From contig JAQJDB010000005.1 in NCBI GenBank assembly GCA_032139905.1, positions 45,001-109,000 of the forward strand: a stretch of 64,000 nt of DNA, written 5' to 3'. Shown here piece by piece: positions 20,848 through 62,781 of the stretch (positions are counted from its first letter, which is position 1; each line of letters opens with the position of its first letter). The translations under genes were made by a program, and so were the position numbers. The DNA is from Nitrospira sp. MA-1 (lineage in GTDB: Bacteria; Nitrospirota; Nitrospiria; Nitrospirales; UBA8639). Under the pieces are notes generated by a model. The model saw nothing but the letters and a program-made list of their open reading frames with translations. It was not told the origin of the DNA and searched no databases.

Positions 20848-21615
20848 CGAGTTCCCCCTAACCAATTGCTTGAGCCCACATGTCCGTGCCGGGCATGGTC
20901 TCAGTGGTGAATAAAGCAAAGCGCAAAACATTCAATGTAGCGTAACTTAACCGCCTTCCGCAATTTTTGATATTGGCTATAGCTGAATTTTTGGTTTTAT
21001 GCTGGTTAACTCCTTGTTTTCGACGTTTTCGGTGGGAGAATCGGTGAAACGTGAAATTCTCCACAACGAGCAGTTCCCCTAACCCTAATAAAGGAGTGCA
21101 AGGGTGAACCGGGCCCTGGCAATGAATAGATTTCTTTTTGATATGATTTTCCAGGAACACATATCGTCCTACACGCACCCATCGGATTGTGAAGGTTCCA
21201 GAGTCAGCCATCGCTCTTCGAACTTTTTGAGTCTTGCGTGCTTTTTGGTGGGAATTTGTATTAGGTTCGATTAGTGATAGTGTAGGGCACAAGCATTAAC
21301 TGGTTTCATATTGAAACATTAGATTAGAAGTAAGCTAAGGGAAGGCAAGTAATTTTACGTGGTTGACCTGAATTTGGTAAGAACTGGGAAAACCCCCACA
21401 GTAGACTTTGAATTCCACTGATAAATATATGATATTTATTATCTCACTCATGTCAAGGTGGAAATGTTCATTGGGTTGCGTACCTAGAATTCTCAGTGGT
21501 AAGATCCGCTCTTATTTCGTGTGAAAAAACATCTGTTTATAAGCATTTCCCGGCGATTGAGACGTGGGTGTGATGCCGCTTTTTCTGAGGCGGAAATCTC
21601 TAAGGAGGCTTGTTG
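20848..21615. other. divergent intergenic region between metK and the stress-protein operon
   Basis: About 770 bases contain the promoters of two divergent transcripts. A minus-strand reading of 144 residues across part of it is rich in Arg, Lys, His and Thr without any domain, so I do not call it. No riboswitch, tRNA or repeat was recognised. Confidence 0.45.
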
Positions 21616-23715
21616 ATGTACAAAACAATATATGTCCCGGTTGATAATTCAGACCATTCGAATATGGCTGTAGAACTGGGGGTGCAGTTCGCGAAAATTT
21701 TCGGATCGAAAATTGTGGGTAGTCATGTGTATGCGGCGAAGATGCATGATAAGCGGTTTAAGCAAATGGAGGCAGGTCTTCCTGAGGAATATCACGACGA
21801 AAAGGAGTTAGATCGCCAACGCCAAATACATGATTCCCTTATTACCAGAGGTTTGCAAATAATTACAGATTCATATTTGGATTTTGTCGATCAGAAATGC
21901 GCGGAAGCGAACATTCCTCTGGAGCGGCGCTCACTCGAGGGACGAAATTGGAAGGCGATTGCAGAAGATATTTCAAAAAATGGGTATGACTTGACCATTA
22001 TGGGGGCCTTGGGGGTTGGGGCAGTGAAGGACTCTGTGATCGGCAGTAACACGGAACGTGTGATCCGTCGGATTCGTAATTCGGACATGTTCGTTGTGAA
22101 AGATACCAAACCCATGAATGGTGGGAAAATTGTGGTAGCTGTAGATGGGAGCCATTACTCCTTCGGCGGATTGAAAACCGCACTCGCCTTGGGAAAGGCG
22201 CTCAATAAGCCTGTAGAAGCGATTTCGGCATTCGATCCCTATTTTCATTACGCCGCGTTTCACAGTATTTCCGGTGTCCTGAATGAAGAGGCTGGAAAGG
22301 TGTTTCGATTTAAGGAACAGGAAAAGCTTCATGAGGAAGTCATTGACAGCGGGTTAGCAAAAATTTACCAGTCTCATCTTGATGTCTCTCGCGATGTCGC
22401 CCAGGATGAGGGCGCGGATATTAAGACAACTCTTCTTGACGGCAAAGCGTTTGAGAAAATCATTCAATACGTTCGGAAAGAGCAGCCATGGCTGCTAATC
22501 GTTGGACGGATTGGGGTGCATAGCGACGATGATATGGATATTGGCAGCAATGCCGAGAATCTTTTGCGTTCAGCTCCTTGCAATGTATTAATATCTAACA
22601 AGAAGTTTGTTCCTCCGATTGACACGCAGGCCGAATACACGATCGCATGGACGGAAGAAGCCTTACGGCGGATGGAAAAGATACCTGTCTTTGCACGGGG
22701 AGTGGCCAAGACTGCGATTCATCGATATGCTATCGAAAAGGGGCATACCATCATCAGTAATTCTGTCATTGATGATGCGGTTGGTGATATTCTACCCAAA
22801 GGGGCCATGGACGCCATGAAAACATTAGGCGGTACTCTCGATGCTGCTGGAGTCGATCGGAATGCCATGCAGGCAGGGGATGAGGTGGCGCAGGACTTGA
22901 TGGGTTCCACCCTGAGCGGCATGATGTCTCAGGTGGTGGAAGAAAAGCCGTCGGAGGCTTCTGCGCCAATGAGCGCAGGGAACAAGTCGTATCTAGCTCG
23001 AATGTCCAGAGACTATTATGTTTGTGGTGGATGTGGATATATTGGGAAAGGCGATCAACCGGTGATGTGCCCTGTCTGTGGTCTGGATGGAGCACAATTC
23101 AAACAAGTAGATAAATCTATTTTTGATGCGGCTGCCAAGGCGGAAGGTGGCTTGGAAACCCAAGTATCATATGACGATATTCCTATGCAGTGGACGAAAG
23201 ATGCTCGTGAAGCCATTCGAGCCGTTCCCGCTGGATTTCAACGCCGACGGGCAAAAGCGAAAATCGAAAAAACTGCAAGAAAACTTGGAATGACCACGAT
23301 TACGTTGGAATATTCAGGAGCAATGATTCAAGAAGCGGCAAGCGAGGACTATACACCAATTTTTGCCAATAAAACGGCTGGGGAGACGGCACCTATGGTC
23401 TCTGAATCCAAAACTGAAAATACTGGCAATAATAATGGAGCCGACCCGTATGTGTGGGAGCCTGATGCCCTACAACGATTGGAAAGAGCTCCTGCCGGAT
23501 TTATGCGTGATTGCACCAAAGCCTTAATTATCAAACATGCTGAAAAAATTGGTACTACAACCATCACTCTAGATGTGGCGAACCAGGGAATTGAACAAGC
23601 CAAAACTACTATGGAAGAAGCCATGAAAACTGGCAATGTCAAAGACATCGTGGCCAAGTTGACTGGCACAGGGGCTCCCTCGGAAGCTCAATCCGGAGCC
23701 GGACATAATGGGTAA
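21616..23715 (+). CDS. tandem universal-stress protein with rubredoxin-like and three PCP_red domains
   Basis: This 699-residue soluble protein has two UspA-type domains (about 1-155 and 170-325; VPVDNSDHSNMAVEL and VAVDGSHYSFGG, with GALGVGAVKDSVIGSNTERV). These are followed by a PCP_red-like helix-turn segment (340-387, WTEEALRRMEKIPVFARG), a rubredoxin-like Cys4 site (467-488, CGGCGYIG ... CPVCG) and two more PCP_red segments (523-565 WTKDAREAIRAVPAGF and 611-660 WEPDALQRLERAPAGF). PCP_red is named from a light-independent protochlorophyllide reductase subunit. ATG 21616 follows AAGGAGG. The next gene overlaps by 8 bp and ends in the same PCP_red segment. A redox or tetrapyrrole-linked role is inferred; the function is unknown. 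Confidence 0.85.
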   Translation: MYKTIYVPVDNSDHSNMAVELGVQFAKIFGSKIVGSHVYAAKMHDKRFKQMEAGLPEEYHDEKELDRQRQIHDSLITRGLQIITDSYLDFVDQKCAEANIPLERRSLEGRNWKAIAEDISKNGYDLTIMGALGVGAVKDSVIGSNTERVIRRIRNSDMFVVKDTKPMNGGKIVVAVDGSHYSFGGLKTALALGKALNKPVEAISAFDPYFHYAAFHSISGVLNEEAGKVFRFKEQEKLHEEVIDSGLAKIYQSHLDVSRDVAQDEGADIKTTLLDGKAFEKIIQYVRKEQPWLLIVGRIGVHSDDDMDIGSNAENLLRSAPCNVLISNKKFVPPIDTQAEYTIAWTEEALRRMEKIPVFARGVAKTAIHRYAIEKGHTIISNSVIDDAVGDILPKGAMDAMKTLGGTLDAAGVDRNAMQAGDEVAQDLMGSTLSGMMSQVVEEKPSEASAPMSAGNKSYLARMSRDYYVCGGCGYIGKGDQPVMCPVCGLDGAQFKQVDKSIFDAAAKAEGGLETQVSYDDIPMQWTKDAREAIRAVPAGFQRRRAKAKIEKTARKLGMTTITLEYSGAMIQEAASEDYTPIFANKTAGETAPMVSESKTENTGNNNGADPYVWEPDALQRLERAPAGFMRDCTKALIIKHAEKIGTTTITLDVANQGIEQAKTTMEEAMKTGNVKDIVAKLTGTGAPSEAQSGAGHNG

Positions 23716-25090
23716 GTCTCTGCCTGTTCTCAATTCATTCCTTAACACGCTGAATTCGTTAGGGGCCGGAGCAATTTCTAAGTTTGAATCATTTCGTCCA
23801 GACTCCGGAGCGCCTGGGGATGGTCGAACCGTGGATGATTTTAAGCCCTACCTCGTGGCTCTCAATTTAACCAAGCGTTGCAATCTCAAATGCGACCATT
23901 GTTATCTGGATGCCACAACGAAAATGGGTGGTGGGCAGGATGAATTGACGACAGAGGAATGTTTTCAGCTTATTGATCAGATTGCCCAAGTCAATGCCGG
24001 TAGTCTTCTTGTTATTACCGGAGGAGAGCCGTTGGTTCGTCCTGATATTCTTGAAATCGCGCGTCATGCAGTCGAGAAGCGATTTATGGTCGTATTTGGC
24101 ACCAATGGTATGCTGATTGACGATAAGATGGCGAAAGCCATGGTAGACATTGGTGTGATGGGCGTAGGAATTAGTATTGATTCCTTAGATTCAGCAACAC
24201 ACAATGCGTTTAGAGGTTTACCTGGCGCATGGGAAGGCGCTATGGCTGGCATTGAAGCCTGCAAACGAAACGGTCTTCAATTTCAAGTACATTTCAGCGC
24301 ACAGCCCATGAACTACAAGGAATTACCAGCGGTCATCGATTGGTCACACGATTTAGGTGCCAAAGTCTTAAATGTCTTTTTCATGGTGTGTACTGGACGG
24401 GGTGAAGAACTCACTGACATCACTCCTTCGCAATATGAAGAGGTCTTGACTTATATGGTTGAGAGCCAAGATAAATACCAGGACATGTTGGTTCGGGCGC
24501 GTTGTGCGCCACATTTCAAACGCTTGGCCTACGAAAAGGACCCAAATTCTCCCATCACCAAAGCGACAGGATATATGGGAGGAGGATGTCTGGCAGGCAC
24601 AAACTATGCGCGAGTGACGCCAAATGGCGATCTCACGCCATGCCCATATATGCCCCTTTCTGCAGGAAACATTCGCGACACCAGTTTTGTCGATTTATGG
24701 GAAAATTCAGAAGTATTCAACTCCTTTCGCTATCCACACCTCAAGGGTAAATGTGGAGATTGCGAATACAGTGAAATTTGCGGCGGGTGCCGTGCTCGTC
24801 CTTATGTGGACCACGGGGATGCGATGGATGAGGATGAATGGTGTCTGTACACTCCCAAAGGGGGAGAAAAAATTAAAGTGGCCTTCAATATGCCGGAAGC
24901 CTCGTCGGTGGAATGGGAAGCCGACGCAGAAGAACGGCTCAGTCGGATCCCATATTTTCTTCGAGCCATGGTCAAAAAAGGTGTCGAGCGTCATGCCGTT
25001 GAACAAGGTCTTCCAATCGTGACCATTGAATTAATGGAAGAACTTCGGAAGCGTCGATTCGGAAATGAAAAACCTGTGTTTAAGTTCTAA
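23708..25090 (+). CDS. radical SAM-SPASM protein with C-terminal PCP_red domain
   Basis: This 460-residue protein carries the radical SAM cluster motif CxxxCxxC (CNLKCDHCYLD, about residues 57-64), ITGGEPL, and a SPASM-type auxiliary Fe-S region (cysteines near 294, 311 and 349-361, ending KCGDCEYSEICGGCRARP). It then has a PCP_red segment (about 400-445, EADAEERLSRIPYFLRAMVKKG). Its closest recognisable relatives are the haem-modifying NirJ/AhbD group and peptide-maturation SPASM enzymes; sequence alone does not choose between them. It overlaps the upstream stress-protein gene by 8 bp and shares one base with the downstream membrane-protein gene. Confidence 0.87.
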   Translation: MGKSLPVLNSFLNTLNSLGAGAISKFESFRPDSGAPGDGRTVDDFKPYLVALNLTKRCNLKCDHCYLDATTKMGGGQDELTTEECFQLIDQIAQVNAGSLLVITGGEPLVRPDILEIARHAVEKRFMVVFGTNGMLIDDKMAKAMVDIGVMGVGISIDSLDSATHNAFRGLPGAWEGAMAGIEACKRNGLQFQVHFSAQPMNYKELPAVIDWSHDLGAKVLNVFFMVCTGRGEELTDITPSQYEEVLTYMVESQDKYQDMLVRARCAPHFKRLAYEKDPNSPITKATGYMGGGCLAGTNYARVTPNGDLTPCPYMPLSAGNIRDTSFVDLWENSEVFNSFRYPHLKGKCGDCEYSEICGGCRARPYVDHGDAMDEDEWCLYTPKGGEKIKVAFNMPEASSVEWEADAEERLSRIPYFLRAMVKKGVERHAVEQGLPIVTIELMEELRKRRFGNEKPVFKF

Positions 25091-25617
25091 TGGAGTCCCT
25101 CCTCGGAGTTCTCACCGATCTTAATCAGATTATTCCCATCCTGGTGCATTGGTTGCACCTACTGTCTGCCGTGGTGTGGATTGGTGGTTTGGCGTTTCTT
25201 GTTATGGCCGTAACGCCCTGTCTCAAAAACACTGTTCCAAAACAATTTATCCGACCAATATCTGAAACCTTTTATCAGCAATATAAACGGGTGGTCGGGA
25301 TTCTCTTGGTAGTTATCCTTTTTACTGGAGGATTCAATCTCCATTATGTCAGTGAGGGGATGGTCATGCAGTCTGGGGAAGGTGTCTCCCATCATGCCAA
25401 ATACCTTACTGTTTTCTTTATTAAATTGTTCTTGGTGCTAGGAATTCTGACCATCTTTCTATACACCATTATCTTTAAAAATGAACCCACAGGTGGTGAG
25501 ACAAGCGAAGAATTAGAAGAGATGGCCATAGAGCCAGTTCCATTTCAGCGTGTAGCATTGTGGATGGGGGTGTTTATCATACTTTGTGCGGCAGCGATGA
25601 AACATCTCCATGTGTAA
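25090..25617 (+). CDS. CopD-like integral membrane protein
   Basis: This 175-residue protein has four likely membrane helices: ILVHWLHLLSAVVWIGGLAFLVM, VVGILLVVILFTGGF, LTVFFIKLFLVLGILTIFLYTI and VALWMGVFIILCAAAM. Histidines stand at helix ends (HWLHLL, HHAKY, KHLHV). The WLHLLSAVVWIGG motif resembles the CopD and cytochrome-b-like families, where such histidines may bind haem or copper. Its start codon overlaps the preceding stop (TAATG), so it belongs to the stress-protein/radical SAM operon and may be the membrane partner. Family assignment is tentative. Confidence 0.75.
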   Translation: MESLLGVLTDLNQIIPILVHWLHLLSAVVWIGGLAFLVMAVTPCLKNTVPKQFIRPISETFYQQYKRVVGILLVVILFTGGFNLHYVSEGMVMQSGEGVSHHAKYLTVFFIKLFLVLGILTIFLYTIIFKNEPTGGETSEELEEMAIEPVPFQRVALWMGVFIILCAAAMKHLHV

Positions 25618-57470: not shown

Positions 57471-57699
57471 TGTATGGTGTTTTGCAGCGCATTCTTGAGA
57501 AGCTACGAGGAGCCGGGGTGGAGGGACATCGGCTAGCATCTGCCGCACGGCGGACAGACTTCCTGAGAACTCTCCCACCCACACCACAAACGTCGATGAG
57601 GAATCTCGCGGCAGGGACCCTGACCGCCGATTTACCCGCAAGCTCACGTTGGTGTGTGCCACCCCAGCATCGTTCACGTACTTTTTGGAGGGTACCATC
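57471..57699 (+). ncRNA. candidate bridge RNA region of the IS110 element
   Basis: In IS110-family elements the long left noncoding end encodes a bridge RNA with target- and donor-binding loops. Here GGGTGG near 57515 can pair with CCACCC near 57575, enclosing a small CCGC/GCGG hairpin (57543-57553). After that hairpin CCTGAG (57562-57567) is complementary to the right target half CTCAGG. Further on GAATCT (57601-57606) equals the right element end, and CGCAAG (57637-57642) largely complements the left end CTTG. RNA boundaries and fold are inferred. Confidence 0.45.
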
Positions 57700-58653
57700 A
57701 TGCACACCTGTCTGAATGTCGGCGTGGATGTGGCCAAAGATGCCGTCATGGTTGCCTGCGCCGAGTCATGCTTCCCGGTCCAGAGTGTTCCCAATCAGCG
57801 TGGCTCGTTGCGGGCTTGGCTCAAATCGCTGCCGGCAGGCAGCCGCATTGGCTTGGAATCCACCGGCGCCTATCACGAATTGCTGGCGGACCTCGCGCAG
57901 GCCTACGGTCATACCGTCTTCCTGCTTAATCCCTTGGATACTCGGCACTATGCCAAGGCCATGGGCACCCGCGCCAAAACCGACTGGGTGGATGCGGAGT
58001 TGATCGCCAGACTCATCGCGCAAGAGCACACGCGCTTGCGGGCCTACACGCCCCCCACGGCGAACCAACGCAAGCTCGATCGGCTCATTCGACGGCGCGC
58101 CACGATCGTCCGCCTCAAAGGCACGCTCAAGCAGACGATGCGCCATCTGAGTGGCTTTGCCCACGAACTCAAGGCGGTGATGGGCAAAATGGATGCCTTG
58201 CTCGCCAAGATTGATGCGACCATGGCCGCGCTGGCGGCCTGTTCGCCCCACCATCAGGAGGCGCAACAACGGTTGCAAACCATTGTGGGCGTCGGGCCCT
58301 TGGTGGGCATCAGCTTGACCAATACGTTGGAGCGCGTGCCGTTCCGCAAGGCGGATGCGTTCGTCGCCTTCATTGGCTTGGATCCGCGGGCGAATGACTC
58401 GGGACACAAAACCGGGCGCCGACGGTTGTCCAAACGCGGCCCCGCCGAGTTGCGCCGCTTGCTGTTTAACGCCGCGATGTCGGCCATCAAAACCACAGTC
58501 TGGAAACCCATCTACGAGTCTTACCGCACTCAAGGTTGGAGCACGACGGCCTCTTTGGTCATTATCGCTCGCAAAATCGCCCGTGCGGCTTGGTCTATTC
58601 ATCATTACCGTACAACATTTCATCCAGAGCGGATCACACAATGCTTGACATAA
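57700..58653 (+). CDS. IS110-family transposase (bridge RNA-guided recombinase)
   Basis: This 317-residue DEDD-type recombinase has an N-terminal RuvC-like domain (GVDVAKD with Asp10, GLESTGAY with Glu near 52, KTDWVDAELIARL with Asp near 96-99). The C-terminal Tnp_20 domain has GVGPLVGISL and the serine-bearing segment GRRRLSKRGPAELRRLLFNAA. ATG 57700 follows GGAGGG. IS110 recombinases use one acidic-site and one serine-site domain with a bridge RNA to join the circular element to target DNA. The frame is complete. Confidence 0.95.
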   Translation: MHTCLNVGVDVAKDAVMVACAESCFPVQSVPNQRGSLRAWLKSLPAGSRIGLESTGAYHELLADLAQAYGHTVFLLNPLDTRHYAKAMGTRAKTDWVDAELIARLIAQEHTRLRAYTPPTANQRKLDRLIRRRATIVRLKGTLKQTMRHLSGFAHELKAVMGKMDALLAKIDATMAALAACSPHHQEAQQRLQTIVGVGPLVGISLTNTLERVPFRKADAFVAFIGLDPRANDSGHKTGRRRLSKRGPAELRRLLFNAAMSAIKTTVWKPIYESYRTQGWSTTASLVIIARKIARAAWSIHHYRTTFHPERITQCLT

Positions 58654-61552: not shown

Positions 61553-62781
61553 TGCGGTTTCAACCGGTCGCTGCAACATCTAATCTCTAATAATAGAGAG
61601 GAGGATGTTGAAAATGAAGCGGCGCCCAAGGATTTATTACACAGAAGAACAAAAGGCCTTAATGTGGGATCGCTGGAAGAAAGGTGAATCTCTGGAGTCG
61701 ATTGCGCGGTTATTTGATCGGCATCATCCGTCGATTGAACGTATCCTTCGAGAGCATGGGGGGATACGCCCGCCAGAGCGTCGACGATCATCATGCGCAC
61801 TAACCCTGGCGGAGCGGGAGGAAATATCACGCGGCATAGCTACAGGTTGCTCCATTCGTTCCATCGCAGCCTCCCTGAATCGTGCGCCTTCGACCATCAG
61901 TCGGGAAATCAAACGCAACCATGGGCAAGGCGGTTACCGGGCAAGTCAGGCTGATCAGGCGGCCTGGGCTCGGGCCCATCGCCCCAAAACCTGTAAACTA
62001 GTAGAGAACCGTGCACTGGCTCGAATCGTAGCCAGGAAGCTACAATTGGAGTGGTCACCCGAGCAGATTGCCGGTTGGCTTAAGCACACCTATCCGGACG
62101 ATGAACGTTACCAGGTGTCCCACGAGACGATCTATAGGAGCCTATTCATCCAGGCACGTGGTGCCTTGAAGAAAGAGTTGATGCAGCATTTGAGGCGCAC
62201 ACGAATGATGCGTCGTTCACGCCACCACACACAAAAAACGGAGGAGCACGGCCGGATTACCGACACCGTATCGATCCGTGAGCGGCCTGCCTCTGCGGCA
62301 GACCGAGCCTTACCGGGACACTGGGAGGGTGATCTGCTATTCGGTAGTCATAACAGCCAGATGGCGACGCTGGTCGAACGTCATACACGCTACCTGATGC
62401 TGGTCAAAGTCGACAGCAAAGACACCGAGACGGTGATCAATGCCTTGATCAAGCAAGCGCATAAGTTACCTCGGGAGCTTTACAAGTCACTCACCTGGGA
62501 CCGAGGCAAAGAGATGGCCGACCATAAACGCTTCACGCTGGCGACCGACATAAAGGTATACTTTTGTGATCCACACAATCCCTGGCAGCGAGGGTCCAAC
62601 GAAAATACCAATGGTCTGTTAAGGCAATACTTCCCGAAAGGAATGGATCTGTCGAGAGTTCCACAAGCCAAGCTAAACGCCGTTGCACGGCGTCTCAACG
62701 AACGACCAAGAAAAACGTTAAACTTTGAAACACCTGCTGAACGATTTAACCCATGTGTTGCAGCGACCGGTTGAAACCGCA
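61553..62781 (+). mobile_element. IS30-family insertion sequence
   Basis: The element is 1229 bp, bounded by perfect 25-bp inverted repeats (61553-61577 and 62757-62781; outer end TGCGGTTTCAACC). AC directly flanks both sides, a possible 2-bp target duplication. The single transposase frame is intact. The insertion lies immediately after a TATAATCG sequence. Confidence 0.93.
61605..62774 (+). CDS. IS30-family transposase
   Basis: This DDE transposase has up to 389 residues. The N-terminal HTH region has ESLESIARLFDRHHPSIERIL and the IS30-type second HTH CSIRSIAASLNRAPSTISREIKRN. The catalytic core has GHWEGDLLFG, TWDRGKEMADHKRF and NPWQRGSNENTNGLLRQYFPKG. The stop falls inside the right inverted repeat. 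Start alternatives are TTG 61605 or ATG 61614; the box AGAGAGGAGG lies just ahead. Confidence 0.95.
   Translation: MLKMKRRPRIYYTEEQKALMWDRWKKGESLESIARLFDRHHPSIERILREHGGIRPPERRRSSCALTLAEREEISRGIATGCSIRSIAASLNRAPSTISREIKRNHGQGGYRASQADQAAWARAHRPKTCKLVENRALARIVARKLQLEWSPEQIAGWLKHTYPDDERYQVSHETIYRSLFIQARGALKKELMQHLRRTRMMRRSRHHTQKTEEHGRITDTVSIRERPASAADRALPGHWEGDLLFGSHNSQMATLVERHTRYLMLVKVDSKDTETVINALIKQAHKLPRELYKSLTWDRGKEMADHKRFTLATDIKVYFCDPHNPWQRGSNENTNGLLRQYFPKGMDLSRVPQAKLNAVARRLNERPRKTLNFETPAERFNPCVAATG

Follow-up and report, generated by a model that had tools for sequence, protein, structure and literature searches.

What unites a fused universal stress protein (Usp), a radical S-adenosylmethionine (SAM) enzyme and a membrane protein in one operon of Nitrospira sp. 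MA-1, where the first two proteins share a domain, PCP_red, named after an enzyme of chlorophyll synthesis? The operon lies in a stretch of 64,000 nucleotides (hereafter the window) from the 4.76-Mb genome of this member of the Nitrospirota, and consists of three coupled genes on the + strand, whose products we call P1 (Usp and PCP_red domains), P2 (radical SAM-SPASM-PCP_red) and P3 (the membrane protein). Judging from domain and gene content, we consider it probable that P1 and P2, joined by P3 in the class of the window and by a paralogue of protoporphyrinogen oxidase (PPO) in several other lineages, make up a system dedicated to maturing a cofactor of the Nitrospira/anammox-type cytochrome bd-like oxidase. 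That the system serves this oxidase is well supported, and that it does so by tetrapyrrole chemistry is what we infer from the families to which its parts belong. The parts are of known kinds, while their assembly and the tie to the bd-like oxidase appear to be new.

Partnership with a cytochrome bd-like oxidase

Since loci with the P2 system kept containing a cytochrome bd-like oxidase (PF01654), the co-occurrence of the two was tested across genomes. Among 197 Nitrospirota genomes besides the host, 82 possess both the system and the oxidase and 112 possess neither, while the system alone was found in two and the oxidase alone in one (p = 4e-52, a value that ignores relatedness). All three discordant genomes are draft assemblies, and the host genome, which brings the set to 198, has both. 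Outside the window's class the corresponding numbers are 19 with both, 2 with the system only, 0 with the oxidase only and 112 with neither, and within the patchy families f25, f26, f27 and f30 the presence of the system and that of the oxidase track each other. An NxrA-like gene, used as a control, showed a far weaker association with the system (51 genomes with both, 33 with the system only, 5 with the NxrA-like gene only and 108 with neither; outside the class 7, 14, 4 and 108, respectively).

The same partnership was found in 180 Gemmatimonadota genomes, where 48 carry both genes, 2 the radical SAM gene only, none the oxidase only and 130 neither. In 48 of 48 cases the P2 gene directly precedes the oxidase gene on its strand, at a distance within 300 bp, and P2 is missing from those Gemmatimonadota whose CydA matches are all weak and of the canonical type. 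The oxidase was also present in 40 of the 43 named genomes with this radical SAM gene, compared with none of the seven named genomes that have only an AhbD/NirJ2-type radical SAM gene; in 14 named genomes the two genes share a contig, at distances from adjacent to 16 kb. The repeated co-presence in different families and phyla, as well as the adjacency, stands apart from the p-values. In two phyla, as in named genomes belonging to further ones, the system and the bd-like oxidase are near-obligate genomic partners, and in many of these genomes they are neighbours.

Nitrospira has no haem-copper oxidases, and the bd-like oxidase has been proposed to act there as the terminal oxidase (PMC6606698); it is common to Nitrospina, Nitrospira and anammox bacteria, its function having been called enigmatic (PMC3578206). 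We found no literature linking it to radical SAM enzymes, PCP_red or the genes described here, most subscription literature lying outside the search, nor did searches that paired PCP_red with Usp, with Nitrospira or with radical SAM yield a paper on this system.

P2, a new AhbD-like branch

The features of the operon are as follows, with positions counted from the first nucleotide of the window.

21602 to 21608, + strand: Shine-Dalgarno-like AAGGAGG, read from the sequence, preceding the P1 start codon ATG at 21616
21616 to 23715, + strand: P1, 699 residues, Usp-Usp-PCP_red-Cys4-PCP_red-PCP_red, conserved class-wide together with P2
22003 to 22047, + strand: ATP-binding-type motif G2xG9xGS of the first Usp domain (residues 130-144)
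22504 to 22548, + strand: ATP-binding-type motif G2xG9xGS of the second Usp domain (residues 297-311)
22648 to 22779, + strand: PCP_red domain 1 of P1 (53.2 bits)
23023 to 23079, + strand: Cys4 rubredoxin/zinc-ribbon-like site CGGC-x11-CPVC (residues 470-488)
23191 to 23310, + strand: PCP_red domain 2 of P1 (41.6 bits)
23455 to 23583, + strand: PCP_red domain 3 of P1 (30.5 bits, alone slightly below the cut-off of 32.5)
23708 to 25090, + strand: P2, 460 residues, radical SAM-SPASM-PCP_red protein belonging to an AhbD-like clade, starting 8 bp inside P1
23879 to 23902, + strand: radical SAM cluster motif CNLKCDHC (CX3CX2C), at residue 58 of P2
24503 to 24844, + strand: full AhbD-type SPASM motif CX27CX17CX36CX2CX5CX2CX17C, as defined in PMC10452713, with two predicted auxiliary Fe-S clusters
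24914 to 25048, + strand: PCP_red domain of P2 (59.8 bits)
25090 to 25617, + strand: P3, 175 residues, helical CopD/DUF4149-like membrane protein, TAATG-coupled to P2

P2 matched the Pfam families Radical_SAM (1.2e-24), SPASM (4.4e-11) and PCP_red (5.6e-15). Its best NCBIfam models were NirJ2 (TIGR04055; 326 bits) and AhbD (TIGR04545; 319 bits), both with a cut-off of 500, and PqqE reached 117 bits. The eight cysteines of its SPASM region are spaced 27/17/36/2/5/2/17 and fall within the ranges of the published AhbD motif, CX20-33CX17CX36-37CX2CX5CX2CX17-35C (PMC10452713). This motif is absent from AhbC/NirJ1-type proteins and so sets the AhbD type apart from them. Of the 93 P2 sequences clustered, 92 have it; the remaining one, a stray of the clustering, also has no PCP_red. 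The cysteines of P2 suffice for the three predicted Fe-S clusters of an AhbD-like radical SAM protein.

In a tree of 105 sequences, all P2 proteins formed one clade with a Shimodaira-Hasegawa-like approximate likelihood ratio (SH-aLRT) support of 99, which stands beside AhbD/NirJ2 and not inside the AhbD group, with AhbC/NirJ1 at a distance (support 100). This clade also takes in two relatives, truncated or frameshifted, in which no PCP_red was recognised. The AlphaFold model of the P2 homologue from locus L119, with a predicted local distance difference test (pLDDT) score of 84, matched SPASM enzymes, PqqE first, and the PCP_red segment of P2 gave profile matches to the nuclear magnetic resonance structures 2L09 and 2KRU and to BchB chains. 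A second, AhbC-type radical SAM gene, which accompanies AhbD/NirJ2 in most control loci, is absent from the P2 loci. On the scores, the motif and the tree, P2 is a new AhbD-like branch and not AhbD itself.

Domains of P1 and P3

P1 matched Usp in two stretches (3.5e-33) and PCP_red (PF08369) in three (2.1e-31). The preliminary description, drawn from the DNA letters and their translations, had read two Usp domains, three PCP_red segments and a Cys4 site in P1 and a radical SAM-SPASM-PCP_red architecture in P2, together with overlapping genes and TAATG coupling; Pfam and the sequence bear this out, the P1/P2 junction being an 8-bp overlap and the P2/P3 junction TAATG. The PCP_red segments also hold up in profile searches, since P1 as a whole scores 108 bits and P2 55.5 bits, both above the gathering cut-off of 32.5. 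Each Usp domain combines the Usp profile with the G2xG9xG(S/T) motif of ATP-binding universal stress proteins. The rubredoxin-like nature proposed for the Cys4 site is less secure: its four cysteines are kept throughout the window's class, but the match to RUBY_RBDX reaches 23 bits and remains below the curated cut-off of 26.5. The P1 proteins of the deeper families f25, f26, f27 and f30 consist simply of Usp domains in tandem, and P2 there retains its PCP_red end.

The likeness of P3 to CopD is clearer at the level of its family, where CopD (PF05425) was matched by 11 of 13 members (best 1.1e-6) and DUF4149 by 12 of 13; the window's own P3 gave by itself a weak match, to DUF4149 only, at 0.0018. 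HemJ was rejected as an identity for P3, since PF03653 is not among the matches listed and CopD/DUF4149 match instead.

Scans for promoters and terminators of the operon gave results at chance level. Genes for S-adenosylhomocysteinase and SAM synthetase lie divergently just upstream of P1 (18213-20931 of the window), and their products could run the SAM cycle on which P2 would draw; a homocysteinase gene is also found near the operon in loci L130 and L132. The window further contains two transposase-like genes (57649-58653 and 61605-62774), IS110-like and IS30-like by eye.

Conservation and spread

Within the order, the P1-P2 pair shows approximately 80% protein identity; nearly every member has it once, and the two genes were neighbours in each order-mate locus that was read, so its arrangement is not due to chance. 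Across the window's class, too, almost every genome has a single P1 gene and a single P2 gene side by side, P2 being present in families f5, f8 and f9 as well. P3 was not found beyond this class, in which 20 loci contain it. A survey of the three genes, suggested in the preliminary description, therefore gives a divided answer: P1 and P2 do not separate freely, but P3 does.

In a collection of 84,980 species, P2 was found in Nitrospirota, Nitrospinota, anammox Planctomycetota, Thermodesulfobacteriota, alpha- and gammaproteobacteria, Rokubacteria, Gemmatimonadota, Acidobacteriota, SAR324 and others, and its clade spans about ten phyla. In this collection a Usp-Usp-PCP_red gene usually precedes P2, though not in Nitrospina and Brocadia. 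A flavin adenine dinucleotide (FAD) protein of 460-488 residues belongs to the P2 cluster in 20 loci; the three that were scored reached 223-254 bits against a PPO cut-off of 97.85, and in family f17 it is a second PPO paralogue, the other being encoded at a separate site.

About 15 loci of family f2 (e.g., L158:891-3443 and L162:1034-3592) have, upstream of P1, genes for an MpqE-type methyl-plastoquinone methyltransferase (412 bits, above the cut-off) and for an slr0320-related B12-binding radical SAM protein, whose 442 bits stay under the cut-off.

Other PCP_red proteins

The host genome encodes 12 PCP_red domains in five proteins, including P1 and P2. Among these five only P2 has the size of BchB, and it is a radical SAM protein; with no BchB in the host genome, and with BchB models matching at the PCP_red end only, a chlorophyll pathway was rejected, in agreement with the earlier observation that no chlorophyll genes are visible. 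The accompanying statement that PCP_red is otherwise known from dark protochlorophyllide reductase (DPOR) proved too narrow; the domain occurs on Usp, zinc-ribbon, radical SAM and HemQ-family proteins.

The three remaining proteins of the host are a 328-residue protein with four PCP_red domains (L043), a 271-residue zinc-ribbon protein with two, encoded behind a NUBPL/Mrp-type Fe-S carrier ATPase (L042:7991-9839), and a 164-residue protein with two, encoded within a respiratory operon that also contains genes for two subunits of the bd-like oxidase type (L044). The last gene type showed the same surroundings in 8 of 8 Nitrospirales, in the order methyltransferase (OMT), DUF420, PCP_red, M357 (a 357-residue membrane protein) and bd-like oxidase. 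The best NCBIfam match of the methyltransferase was BchU, at 72 bits and hence below the cut-off of 276; BchU is a tetrapyrrole C-methyltransferase. CtaM, a factor in oxidase assembly, belongs to the DUF420 family (PMC13344008). The gene with four PCP_red domains is inserted between P2 and P3 in families f5 and f8, and contig G131:C60 carries P1, P2, P3, the genes for the protein with four PCP_red domains and the Mrp/two-PCP_red pair, DUF420 and a bd-like gene within 25 kb. Because they share these loci, the PCP_red proteins look like one functional network. The pair of NUBPL/Mrp and the zinc-ribbon protein, linked to P1/P2 in G131 (L106), suggests that PCP_red proteins also meet Fe-S delivery.

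In family f18, which has neither P1/P2 nor the bd-like oxidase, a chlorite-dismutase/HemQ-family domain carries PCP_red as an independent N-terminal fusion (L271:4036-5061 and L275:3552-4679; PF06778 4.7e-19, PF08369 1.2e-14). With BchB, the AhbD-like P2 and this fusion, three kinds of protein from tetrapyrrole-enzyme families bear PCP_red.

Similar exported proteins with a carboxypeptidase-regulatory-like domain are encoded near the bd-like operon (L044:279-1208) and near an alphaproteobacterial P1/P2 operon (L175:3252-4052).

Haem b synthesis beside P2

Genes for a conventional ending of haem b synthesis exist besides P2. Nearly all genomes of the class encode a HemQ-type protein (PF06778), most at about 200 bits, the host has a PPO gene located outside the P1-P3 operon, and the f25-f27 and f30 genomes with P2 also contain a separate AhbD-like enzyme. 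A role of P2 as the sole haem b synthase was rejected on these grounds, and their coexistence makes it unlikely that P2 belongs to the ordinary haem b route. No HemN above 1e-100 was detected in the window's order. A search that covered HemQ, HemN and PPO found neither of the first two, and no high-scoring PPO, in families f11, f15 and f16; the genomes concerned in f15 and f16 have P2 (L113, L114, L115 and L144).

Proposed function and alternatives

A tetrapyrrole role of the system is suggested by the AhbD type of P2, by its PPO partner, by a BchU-like methyltransferase encoded in the oxidase operon and by the PCP_red-HemQ-family fusion. P2 would act on an iron-porphyrin or a precursor to yield a modified haem, most simply by an AhbD-like oxidative decarboxylation of one side chain. 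The PCP_red domains may be a shared docking or tetrapyrrole-handling module, and it is plausible that P1 and P2 bind a putative common partner through them. P1, with its two ATP-binding-type Usp domains, could be the carrier or scaffold that hands the product on, P3 might provide copper supply or haem handling at the membrane, and the finished cofactor would be inserted into the bd-like oxidase. The preliminary description, which spoke of an undescribed redox or haem-modifying system, pointed in the right direction, given the AhbD motif, the neighbouring position to AhbD/NirJ2, PPO and the HemQ fusion; the oxidase partner, encoded outside the window, escaped it. A nitrosative or oxidative stress role of the operon, for which it had suggested expression studies, found no support in this analysis.

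Several observations weigh against a dedicated maturation system of this kind. The p-values disregard kinship, and in the host the P1-P3 operon does not lie beside the bd-like genes and contains no PPO gene. P2 stays below the cut-offs for NirJ2 and AhbD, the solved structures nearest to its model are PqqE, SuiB and SkfB, SPASM enzymes with peptide substrates, and no AhbD or NirJ structure was among the structure matches of that model. The AlphaFold model of P3 (pLDDT 73) found no significant match in the PDB. The structural neighbours of P2 lead to the main rival, in which P2 is a peptide maturase that introduces a radical cross-link or side-chain modification into the bd-like oxidase or a neighbouring protein, with PCP_red and P1 recognising the substrate. 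PqqE, SuiB and anSME modify their peptides in this manner, the link to the oxidase fits this explanation equally well, and no small precursor-peptide gene would be required if the oxidase were the target. We nevertheless regard it as unlikely, as the cysteine spacing, the family models (PqqE 117 against NirJ2 326 bits) and the tree place P2 with AhbD/NirJ2, and a PPO-like gene follows in about 20 loci.

P2 might instead be a second, oxygen-independent terminal haem b enzyme, converting coproheme to haem b at low oxygen. It has the AhbD motif, the PPO partner could serve as a coproporphyrinogen oxidase, and both the lack of strong HemN matches in the order and the findings in f11, f15 and f16 would fit; this is distinctly improbable in view of the HemQ-type proteins of the class and the separate AhbD-like enzymes of f25-f27 and f30, and it leaves the tie to one oxidase, and the absence from 112 other genomes, unexplained. 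Loading of the oxidase and its partners with copper or Fe-S clusters, with P3 importing copper and P1/P2 as redox proteins or metallochaperones without any haem chemistry, could draw on the CopD-like P3, on DUF420 in the oxidase operon, on the Fe-S carrier ATPase ahead of another PCP_red gene and on a precedent in Bacillus, where CopD (YcnJ) and DUF420 (CtaM) support haem-copper oxidases (PMC13344008). However, P3 was found only in the window's class (20 loci) while P1 and P2 spread wider, a complete radical SAM enzyme is poorly explained by metal delivery, and the bd-like oxidase is not known to contain copper, which makes this explanation very improbable. Hardly any credence can be given to maturation of NXR or a related molybdoenzyme, with the bd-like oxidase correlating merely via nitrite oxidation: NXR-like genes adjoin the system in some loci, but in 33 of the 84 genomes that have the system, among them families f3-f9 of the window's class, no NxrA-like gene was found, and five genomes have one without the system. 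NXR was rejected as the partner, its association being clearly weaker than that of the bd-like oxidase.

If the system is indeed a cofactor-maturation system for the bd-like oxidase, the cofactor content of this oxidase would differ from that of canonical cytochrome bd, and a dedicated radical SAM maturation would offer a testable route to the contents of these globally important enzymes. A more specific proposal, possible but on balance doubtful, is that in nitrite oxidisers, comammox and anammox bacteria the bd-like oxidases hold an undescribed haem type from a new branch of haem biosynthesis, comprising a PPO paralogue or the housekeeping PPO, the AhbD-like radical SAM-PCP_red enzyme, possibly a BchU-like C-methyltransferase, and PCP_red carriers. 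PCP_red would gain a function outside chlorophyll synthesis. PF08369 is listed as one of the Pfam families most widespread in phototrophs (PMC12815261), and with about 12 per genome in the window's class without BchB it is by itself misleading as a marker of phototrophy.

Comparison with known systems

P2 resembles AhbD/NirJ2 in its radical SAM-SPASM make-up, full cysteine motif and adjoining position in the tree. It differs in forming its own clade with scores below the cut-offs, in its C-terminal PCP_red and the missing AhbC-type partner, and further in its bd-like oxidase partner and its coexistence with HemQ-type or AhbD-like enzymes. With BchB/ChlB of DPOR (PDB 2KRU, 2L09), the namesake of PCP_red, P1 and P2 share this domain, whereas the nitrogenase-like domain and the DPOR context are missing and Usp, radical SAM and zinc-ribbon proteins bear PCP_red instead. 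The bd-like oxidase has the N-terminal Cyt_bd_oxida_I region in common with the canonical CydA of cytochrome bd (CydAB), and its haem b ligands are reported to be conserved, but three helices replace the Q-loop (PMC3578206), and genomes whose CydA matches are weak and canonical-type throughout lack P2. Compared with the assembly of haem-copper oxidases (CtaM/DUF420, CopD/YcnJ), the likeness consists in DUF420 in the bd-like operon and the CopD-like P3; the oxidase here is instead a CydA-related bd-like one, and its system is built around a radical SAM enzyme. To our knowledge, none of the described oxidase assembly pathways uses a radical SAM enzyme in this way.

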